Assembly (NCBI GenBank): GCA_946479435.1
Contig: CAMLFX010000136.1
Span: 1 to 5,356, forward strand
DNA from: an uncultured Sphingobacteriales bacterium
GTDB taxonomy: Bacteria > Bacteroidota > Bacteroidia > Chitinophagales > Chitinophagaceae
Direction: 5' to 3'
Length of the DNA: 5,356 nt
Shown: positions 1 to 456 of the stretch, piece by piece
How positions within the stretch are numbered: position 1 is the first letter of the stretch
How the letters are laid out: each line of letters begins with the position of its first letter
Program-made: the position numbers and the translations under genes
The notes under the pieces: generated by a model
Database searches by the model: none
What the model was told of the DNA's origin: nothing
Seen by the model: only the letters and a program-made list of their open reading frames with translations

Positions 1-65
1 GCTCAGCTGGCTAGAGCGCTTGCATGGCATGCAAGAGGTCATCGGTTCGACTCCGTTATTCTCCA
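1..65 (+). tRNA. tRNA-Ala (anticodon GGC), 5' end cut by window
   Basis: This tRNA decodes alanine GCC/GCU codons. The window opens at the D stem: GCTC (1-4) pairs with GAGC (14-17). The anticodon stem is CTTGC (19-23) with GCAAG (31-35), enclosing the loop ATGGCAT with anticodon GGC at 26-28. The variable region AGGTC (36-40) is followed by the T arm (41-57) with loop TTCGACT. The 3' acceptor strand ATTCTCC is at 58-64 and the discriminator A at 65. The next bases are CAA, so CCA is not encoded. The T stem has one T-T mismatch (42 against 56). About nine bases (the 5' acceptor strand and positions 8-9) lie outside the window; an intact gene should have GGAGAAT there. A terminator follows 9 nt later. 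This is the better preserved of two copies and probably the working one. Confidence 0.92.
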
Positions 66-73
66 CAAGCTTT

Positions 74-96
74 AAATCGCCTCCGGGCGATTTTTT
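74..96 (+). terminator. Rho-independent terminator after tRNA-Ala
   Basis: AAATCGCC (74-81) pairs perfectly with GGCGATTT (86-93) around a TCCG loop, and a run of six T follows at 91-96. It should end the tRNA-Ala transcript. The GIY-YIG start codon lies only 8 nt after the T run, so that gene would need read-through or a promoter hidden here. Confidence 0.88.
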
Positions 97-103
97 CATT
101 TGC

Positions 104-355
104 ATGAATTACTGTTTTTATATTATCTATTCAATAAAGTTGGACAAGTATTACATTGGCCATACTGAGGATGTGCGAAAACGCTAGGGACAGCATAATG
201 ATGGCATCTCTTATTTCACTTCTAAAGCTGACGATTGGCAAATTGCTTATTGCGAAGTGTATGCTACACGGGAAGAAGCAAGAGCCAGGGAAACTGAAGT
301 GAAAAAGAAGAAGAGTAGAAAGTATATTGAATGGCTAATTAGCTCAGCTGGCTAG
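104..355 (+). pseudogene. GIY-YIG family nuclease, interrupted by an amber codon
   Basis: From the ATG at 104 the frame reads 83 sense-or-amber codons, ending at TAG 353-355. It resembles the small stand-alone GIY-YIG nucleases common in Bacteroidota (SLX1/UPF0213-like, usually about 80-100 residues). Visible features are FYIIYS (residues 5-10, the GIY position), KYYIG (15-19), the probable catalytic Arg27 in VRKR, a QHN segment shortly after, DWQIAY (44-49) and a helix ending ARETEVKK in which Glu63 is the likely metal-binding residue. Codon 28 is TAG (185-187), directly after Arg27, where relatives usually have Leu or another hydrophobic residue; one base change from TTG would explain it. 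No frameshift is visible, so the break looks recent. The last codons (SSAG and the stop) are read from the second tRNA copy. It is probably inactive unless the amber codon is read through. Confidence 0.8.
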
Positions 356-418
356 AGCGCTTGCATGCCCCGAAAGCATTCGGGGAAGAGGTCATCGGTT
401 CGACTCCGTTATTCTCCA
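333..418 (+). pseudogene. tRNA-Ala-like copy with a hairpin in place of the anticodon
   Basis: From the D stem onward (342-418) this matches the tRNA-Ala at the window start, with intact D arm (342-358), T arm (394-410) and 3' acceptor strand ATTCTCC (411-417). Two changes should disable it as an alanine tRNA. The 5' acceptor strand GGCTAAT (333-339) pairs with ATTCTCC at only five of seven positions. The anticodon loop and the 3' half of the anticodon stem are partly replaced by an 18-nt hairpin (368-385), so GGC is gone and the body is about 86 nt instead of 74. CTT (360-362) can still pair with AAG (386-388), giving a long bulged arm. It overlaps the 3' end of the GIY-YIG frame and is followed by its own terminator. 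It is probably a pseudogene; a tRNA-like small RNA is possible but unsupported. Confidence 0.82.
368..385 (+). repeat. Perfect palindromic hairpin inserted in the tRNA copy
   Basis: CCCCGAA (368-374) pairs fully with TTCGGGG (379-385) across an AGCA loop. It sits exactly where copy 1 has the anticodon loop and 3' stem bases GCATGC (27-32). From memory, short palindromes of the CCCGAAAGCATTCGGG type occur often between genes in Bacteroidota genomes, so this may be a dispersed palindromic element; that cannot be tested from one copy. Confidence 0.75.
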
Positions 419-426
419 CAAGCTTT

Positions 427-449
427 AAATCGCCTTCGGGCGATTTTTT
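427..449 (+). terminator. Rho-independent terminator after the tRNA-like copy
   Basis: AAATCGCC (427-434) pairs with GGCGATTT (439-446) around a TTCG tetraloop, followed by six T (444-449). It equals the first terminator except that the loop is TTCG, a very stable tetraloop. It also lies 8 nt beyond the stop of the minus-strand kinase. Read in that direction the stem is followed by only three T, so it would be a weak terminator for the kinase. Confidence 0.88.
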
Positions 450-456
450 CATTTTC

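Follow-up and report, generated by a model that had tools for sequence, protein, structure and literature searches.

The window analysed here, a 5,356-nt stretch of DNA from an uncultured Sphingobacteriales bacterium, begins with a small nuclease frame lying between two nearly identical tRNA sequences, and the locus raises the question of whether this arrangement is a fortuitous gene order or the trace of an element that spreads with tRNA genes. On the + strand, the order is tRNA-Ala(GGC), terminator, GIY-YIG frame, second tRNA-Ala copy, and terminator, with the following features in window coordinates:

1..65, + strand: tRNA-Ala(GGC) copy 1 from the D stem onward, anticodon loop present, 5' end beyond the window (Rfam RF00005, 40.2 bits, 5'-cut; sequence; copy comparison)
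33..101, + strand: direct repeat copy 1, comprising anticodon stem end, T arm, 3' end, and terminator (repeat search)
74..96, + strand: left intrinsic terminator, AAATCGCC-TCC-GGGCGATTTTTT (sequence)
104..355, + strand: GIY-YIG nuclease frame, 84 codons including the final TAG (PF01541, 55 bits; 271 homologues; AlphaFold2 mean pLDDT 93)
185..187, + strand: in-frame TAG inside the nuclease frame (sequence)
333..418, + strand: tRNA', a broken second tRNA-Ala copy with mismatched acceptor 5' strand, no alanine anticodon, and intact T arm and 3' end (Rfam, 34.7 bits, 23 nt of the anticodon arm left out)
368..385, + strand: 18-nt palindrome CCCCGAA-AGCA-TTCGGGG, with a 7-bp stem and 4-nt loop, substituting GCATGC of the anticodon arm (copy comparison)
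386..454, + strand: direct repeat copy 2, 68/69 identical to copy 1 (repeat search; copy comparison)
427..449, + strand: right terminator of the same type as the left (sequence; repeat search)

Only the part of tRNA copy 1 from the D stem on is visible, and the intactness of its 5' end lies outside the window. Both copies exceed the Rfam gathering threshold of 29 bits. The first-pass annotation had described the flanking tRNA-Ala/terminator copies as a 101-nt unit present twice; the near-identical copies on either side of the frame hold, whereas the unit measures 101 nt only in copy 1 (1-101) and 113 nt in copy 2 (342-454), and both the palindrome and the in-frame stop had been overlooked. The two units agree throughout their first 26 nt and at 68 of their last 69 nt, with the sole break at GCATGC (27-32) in copy 1, which corresponds to CCCCGAAAGCATTCGGGG (368-385) in copy 2, such that six anticodon-arm nucleotides of the second tRNA are exchanged for a perfect 18-nt palindrome. 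Judged by their sequence, two 69-nt stretches of 99% identity, 353 nt apart, are not a chance resemblance. The second copy was rejected as a functional tRNA because the palindrome replaces the alanine anticodon, and its acceptor stem contains non-pairs, the 5' strand GGCTAAT pairing incompletely with ATTCTCC.

The nuclease frame runs into this broken copy: the acceptor 5' strand doubles as its final codons, the D arm of tRNA copy 2 supplies the terminal ISSAG and stop codons, and the frame ends at the TAG of the tRNA D-loop. Given the in-frame TAG at 185-187, the nuclease copy in the window is probably a dead pseudogene in a decayed locus. By eye, the left terminator type recurs at six other loci (L002, L004, L009, L011, L013, and L050) and is therefore probably carried by the element. 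The neighbours in the window are ordinary (TPR sensor kinase, TauE permease with DUF1634, and LpxB); at 2576-3854, the TauE/SafE permease adjoins the DUF1634 protein. A search with the neighbouring kinase gave only relatives of approximately 27-36% identity, in 59 of 195 family genomes, and hence no unoccupied version of the window's own locus.

Proximity to tRNA genes was examined in two sets of loci. The first consisted of the best 80 loci among 337 relatives found by genome scan, plus 40 chosen regions with paralogues sought in 40 genomes, and yielded 149 scored nuclease matches, 134 with a family score of at least 40 and 15 with a score of 25-40. Among the 134, a tRNA called by ARAGORN lies within 600 nt in 99 and within 250 nt in 82, and in 99/99 cases the tRNA and the nuclease share a strand; a rough estimate of the chance expectation within 600 nt is 1-2%. 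The figure for the 15 lower-scoring matches is only 4/15. First-set loci were ranked by similarity to the query, and a second set was therefore drawn, consisting of 40 regions taken in roughly list order, where flanks allowed, from the 60 of 119 sampled genomes of one class that match at E ≤ 1e-10. With two arrays of one genome, both beside tRNAs, omitted from the count, 33/38 lie within 600 nt of a tRNA that shares their strand (as read from the table), the exceptions being L233, L236, L253, L254, and L255.

Chance adjacency was rejected on the basis of these two counts. The recurring link between GIY-YIG genes and tRNA genes in Bacteroidota that the first-pass annotation proposed is thus borne out, and the outcome that it named as fatal, that such genes lie no closer to tRNAs than chance, is contradicted. 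Its naming of tRNA-Ala as the target was correct as far as it went but too narrow, as 15 anticodons adjoin the nuclease in the first set and six more in the second. The remaining 35/134 first-set matches are without an ARAGORN tRNA within 600 nt; many lie at contig ends, in arrays, or by half-tRNAs, and not all are explained. By eye, 17 first-set loci without a complete upstream tRNA include eleven with a tRNA half or a palindrome-bearing copy upstream and three with a short 3' stub. No tRNA was found in 9/9 chosen paralogue regions with a best GIY-YIG score of 30-38, which may be of the UPF0213/Slx1-like kind.

The tRNA is also copied across the nuclease. With the nearest intact tRNA taken as the reference, 98 of 99 opposite sides were readable, and a copy of the same tRNA (local score of at least 30 and above 50 shuffles) was present in 86/98 and absent in 12/98, which speaks for the earlier proposal of an element that inserts at or spreads with the tRNA, its movement being inferred, and against an old tRNA array with no link to the nuclease. 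Intact tRNAs pass the bare palindrome test in 30/86 cases, and palindromes present in the tRNA were therefore excluded; by the resulting test (stem of at least 6, absent from the intact tRNA), a palindrome occurs in 73/86 copies, compared with 24/226 control windows taken 700-1300 nt away; a few of the listed palindromes (L043, L112, and L120) still resemble tRNA sequence. The other 13/86 copies have no palindrome. The last 31 nt of downstream copies are identical to the intact tRNA in 32/77 and at least 94% identical in 46/77, and tRNA' evidently originates from the local tRNA. In 9/86 copies, the nearest called tRNA lies downstream of the nuclease, which at L026 is an artefact call on tRNA', and L113, L122, L135, and L144 run the opposite way, from the broken copy through the nuclease to the intact tRNA. 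The nuclease usually adjoins a tRNA copy disrupted at a set place, and an intact tRNA remains next to the unit.

The ARAGORN call of tRNA-Ser(CGA) at window positions 333-419 was taken as an artefact, copy 2 having no alanine anticodon. The program labels tRNA' sequences as tRNA-Ser(CGA), tRNA-Pro(TGG), unknown, or tRNA-Stop (in the window at 333-419 and at L026, L029, and L030), and ghost tRNAs of this type may be present in public annotations.

The palindromes were assigned to a class for 110/131 proteins, the window included, with 19 having none and 2 having two classes:

Class S: TCCCG..CGGGA and variants, 96 proteins
Class G: TCCGCC..GGCGGA, 8 proteins
Class C: CCTGCC..GGCAGG, 6 proteins

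Junctions could be mapped in 55 copies of the first set. In 30/55, from 27 loci and six tRNA kinds (Ala, Arg, Leu, Met, Pro, and Val), the palindrome takes the place of the 17-nt anticodon stem-loop and of nothing else, the tRNA being kept to 8 nt before the anticodon start and resuming 10 nt after it. The junction type of the window accounts for 12/55 (nine loci, Ala), G-class copies at tRNA-Met have lost the same 10 nt in 5/5, and C-class palindromes were inserted without loss in all five mapped copies; among the remaining three, two lie in T arms and one belongs to none of these classes. The second sample is more varied: its 28 mapped sites include 6 exact arm swaps, 2 of the window type, and 6 from one tRNA-Asn locus, with the rest elsewhere and some probably spurious.

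That one hairpin is substituted for another, precisely at the anticodon arm and in six tRNA kinds, invites the reading that the system moves palindromes. An Slx1-like structure-specific nuclease would recognise hairpins, cut at their bases, and so move the palindrome; tRNA arms would be its favourite hairpins, and the tRNA-flanked gene would be the place where nuclease and palindrome travel together, by analogy with REP/RAYT. Second palindromes seen by eye in the T arms at L002, L013, and L017 agree with this, as does the likeness of the predicted nuclease fold to Slx1. On balance, this reading is considered unlikely, although several further observations bear on it.

One of these is the relation of the palindrome to the nuclease phylogeny. 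On the nuclease tree, which is built from 81 columns and has many open forks and few G and C rows, palindrome class changes 2 times over 110 rows, the minimum for three classes, compared with 12-14 times in 200 shuffles. For tRNA kind, the tree requires 27 changes across 97 rows (minimum 14; 53-62 in shuffles), which indicates that it is clustered on the tree yet moves often; over the 80 rows with both labels, tRNA kind (eleven kinds) changes 22 times and palindrome class 2. The same tRNA can carry different classes: tRNA-Met has class S where the nuclease scores high and mostly G where it scores low (exceptions are L129, a low-scoring S, and L117 with both), and tRNA-Arg(TCT) and Leu(TAA) carry S or C, split likewise. 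Palindrome class therefore follows the nuclease clade, which also suits a palindrome mover.

The S palindrome is further dispersed outside tRNAs, with 0-94 copies per genome across 119 genomes compared with 0-3 for a reversed control. Genomes with the nuclease are richer (476 copies in 60 genomes with it versus 87 in the 59 without; rank test p = 7e-8, uncorrected for kinship and with copies inside units counted). In three rich genomes, none of 15 sampled S copies falls within a tRNA copy, although one (L293) adjoins one; in an earlier mixed sample of 19 loci, approximately 7 palindromes were judged by eye to be in tRNA copies. RAYT was rejected as the palindrome's partner, as the TCCCG form occurs near 0/29 RAYT loci of six such genomes, with the CCCCG form at two. 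The S palindrome is therefore also a dispersed REP-like repeat. Most of these observations favour palindrome movement; however, the genome correlation ignores kinship, four genomes (G127, G134, G148, and G178) are palindrome-rich without a nuclease match at 1e-10, the dispersed copies are mostly one 18-mer while the palindromes of tRNA' vary in the centre, and the CCCCG variant does occur at two of the 29 RAYT loci. A bolder formulation, that of a new mobile system in which a minimal, structure-specific GIY-YIG nuclease excises the anticodon hairpin at its base in exchange for its clade's palindrome, retains a working tRNA next to the altered copy, and seeds the palindrome at other places in Bacteroidota genomes, REP-like without a Y1 transposase, is doubtful. 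In G092, G185, and G180, TCCCGATAGCTATCGGGA and close variants form a dispersed intergenic palindrome, with up to 94 S-type copies in one genome, and the TCCCG form is missing from the RAYT loci of these genomes.

The nuclease itself belongs to the GIY-YIG superfamily, as PF01541 scores 55 bits on the read-through protein of the window (gathering threshold 22.6). A protein search with the read-through frame retrieved 271 relatives; among the best 120 listed, many end by eye in WLISSAG or WLISSVG, which is the tRNA sequence read as protein, and several start with translated tRNA 3' halves. The N- or C-terminal extensions of P0007, P0041, P0077, P0085, P0072, and P0102 resemble translated tRNA or tRNA'. 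Across 38 proteins, Y17, R27, H31, and E63 are invariant and are presumably the catalytic residues. For the AlphaFold2 model (mean pLDDT 93), the only solved match under 0.001 is the UPF0213 protein BH0048 (1zg2, E = 5e-4), followed by weaker matches to Slx1 (4xlg and 6sei, E = 0.04, probability 1.00) and an I-TevI domain (0.7). At 83 aa, the family protein is approximately the GIY-YIG fold and little else; known homing enzymes have a binding domain besides this fold, a difference that tells against a homing role.

Ten genes of the Pontibacter group differ by 0.24/0.23/0.55 per codon position, and their single-difference codons comprise 1086 synonymous and 363 non-synonymous cases (summed over 45 pairs that share ancestry), a pattern which indicates that the protein is under selection. 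A stop or unknown residue interrupts 11/131 frames, that of the window included. The family is mostly found in Bacteroidota, with a few loci in records titled Ignavibacteria, Cloacimonadota, and Marinimicrobia. A phage origin received no support, as a tblastn search of 50,697 phage records with the single member tested, P0009, gave nothing at E = 1e-3. A literature search by words and by palindrome letters, with most subscription journals and bioRxiv preprints outside its scope, found no description of this family, which looks to be undescribed.

The unit is present in some congeners and absent from others. In the genus of Pontibacter ruber, 29 matched loci comprise 13 with the gene (score > 90), one remnant, and 15 without, the 15 including three stretches that hold no tRNA and not each having been checked as the same place. 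Occupied and unoccupied alleles of one locus are found among flank-sharing loci, the upstream flank being common to L028, L172, and L173 with the gene and to L171 and L174 without it. The terminator that follows the tRNA of the gene-less L174 matches the one beyond tRNA' in the occupied L028 (score 83), and L174 has no counterpart of the left terminator of L028 (13); the comparison of L205 with L200 runs in the same direction (right 50, left 26). On the contrary side, L171, which is the gene-less locus closest to L028, resembles it at the left terminator (44) but not at the right one (15), and for L172, L173, and L176 the left-side match is as good or better. The behaviour of L171 would be explicable if it were a scar, and by eye it seems to retain the terminator of the element together with a decayed start of the gene. 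L178, listed with the gene-less sites in this comparison, in fact has the gene, and the terminator comparison is a weak test of insertion.

Units also occur in tandem. L220 (G192:C9:905200-911200) has ten near-identical nuclease units at 457-bp spacing after a tRNA-Met, L221 of the same genome has four full units and one partial unit at 379-bp spacing after a tRNA-Asn, and L046 has six tRNA' units in tandem before the gene. At L151 (G015:C5), four 93-bp repeats at approximately 1400-1812 consist of the tRNA upstream sequence, the tRNA 5' half, and a palindrome and run to the end of the stretch; no nuclease gene was seen in the part examined.

A single unit measures approximately 350-460 bp and holds one frame, without room for an integrase. 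This bears on the reading that an old tandem tRNA duplication happens to enclose an unrelated nuclease, or that the nuclease is cargo of an integrase-type element. What lends it some colour is that, by eye, the tRNA-Ala at L005, L008, L022, and L040 is represented only by its 3' half, from the anticodon loop on, to the left of the nuclease with unrelated sequence before it, where another, probably integrative, element sits in the anticodon loop. The reading is nevertheless already contradicted and highly improbable, since many tRNA kinds show the same gene order, strand, palindrome, and junctions, a unit of about 350 bp has space for one gene only, and the palindrome tracks the nuclease clade.

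The form of tRNA' suggests an effect at the RNA level as a further alternative, in which transcripts of tRNA' would serve as tRNA-like decoys or as antitoxin RNA and would restrain a GIY-YIG protein acting as a toxin, an anticodon nuclease, or a defence factor. Many copies keep the T arm and the acceptor 3' strand and have a hairpin where the anticodon arm would be, and the six tandem units at L046 loosely recall repeat RNA antitoxins. Nonetheless, by eye, most copies have a missing or mismatched acceptor 5' strand and D arms are decaying, left-type copies are without a 3' end, the presence of the unit varies among congeners, and no GIY-YIG enzyme is known to cut tRNA, all of which makes this alternative quite improbable.

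The locus is best explained as one decayed representative of selfish, homing-like elements that form a widespread family, mainly of Bacteroidota, an interpretation that we regard as probable with appreciable doubt. The architecture is solid: the unit is about 350 bp and consists of a terminator, one small GIY-YIG gene, and tRNA', copied from the local tRNA and usually with a palindrome characteristic of the nuclease clade standing in for part of its anticodon arm. From this architecture, we infer the mechanism and the movement of the element. The nuclease would break DNA at tRNA genes without a unit, and a unit-bearing copy would repair the break, with the tRNA halves serving as homology arms and the unit becoming inserted. 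Repair would restore the intact tRNA to one flank of the unit, with the palindrome-bearing copy at the opposite flank; a working tRNA would be left beside the broken copy, and the host would therefore survive. Repeated breaks, together with the tRNA repeats, may generate the tandem arrays. The palindrome would be the nuclease's own mark, serving either as its recognition site or as a plug that makes the copied site uncuttable, and the data favour neither. The weakest point of the homing interpretation is that the intact tRNA beside the unit would be expected to be cut again, and nothing seen explains its protection.

By analogy, the closest known system is SegB of T-even phages, a small free-standing GIY-YIG gene tied to tRNA genes and implicated, in passages of one report, in breaks in tRNA-containing DNA (PMC13096335). 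Those passages ascribe segB amplification to a likely recombination of the tRNA-Tyr 5' region with the segB 3' region, the two having microhomology in common, which resembles the overlap of the nuclease 3' end with the tRNA described here; the same passages describe no palindrome-bearing broken tRNA copy, anticodon-arm swap, or hopping among tRNA kinds (PMC13096335). SegB is also phage-borne, whereas the present family is chromosomal.

Three other systems share individual traits. REP palindromes are mobilised by RAYT (Y1/HUH) transposases, a nuclease family with a cognate palindrome and genome-dispersed copies; the present family likewise has its own palindrome that is also dispersed, but the enzyme of the unit is GIY-YIG and not Y1/HUH, and the palindrome lies within a tRNA copy. 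Integrative elements with tyrosine integrases insert at tRNA genes, duplicate tRNA sequence, and leave a working tRNA, as these units do, whereas the units comprise one nuclease frame in approximately 350-460 bp and their tRNA copy bears a palindrome. Compact UPF0213/Slx1-like GIY-YIG nucleases, which are cellular proteins, share the predicted fold of the family protein.

If this interpretation is correct, the tRNA genes of a major bacterial phylum would host a compact selfish element whose single nuclease has about 83 residues, and the link between GIY-YIG and tRNA genes seen in phage SegB would gain a parallel on bacterial chromosomes. The element would account for wrong tRNA calls (Ser, Pro, and Stop) and for database proteins with translated tRNA ends, and it would provide a natural assay for how small nucleases find hairpins, with a clear, testable question posed by the precise replacement of the anticodon arm in different tRNA kinds.
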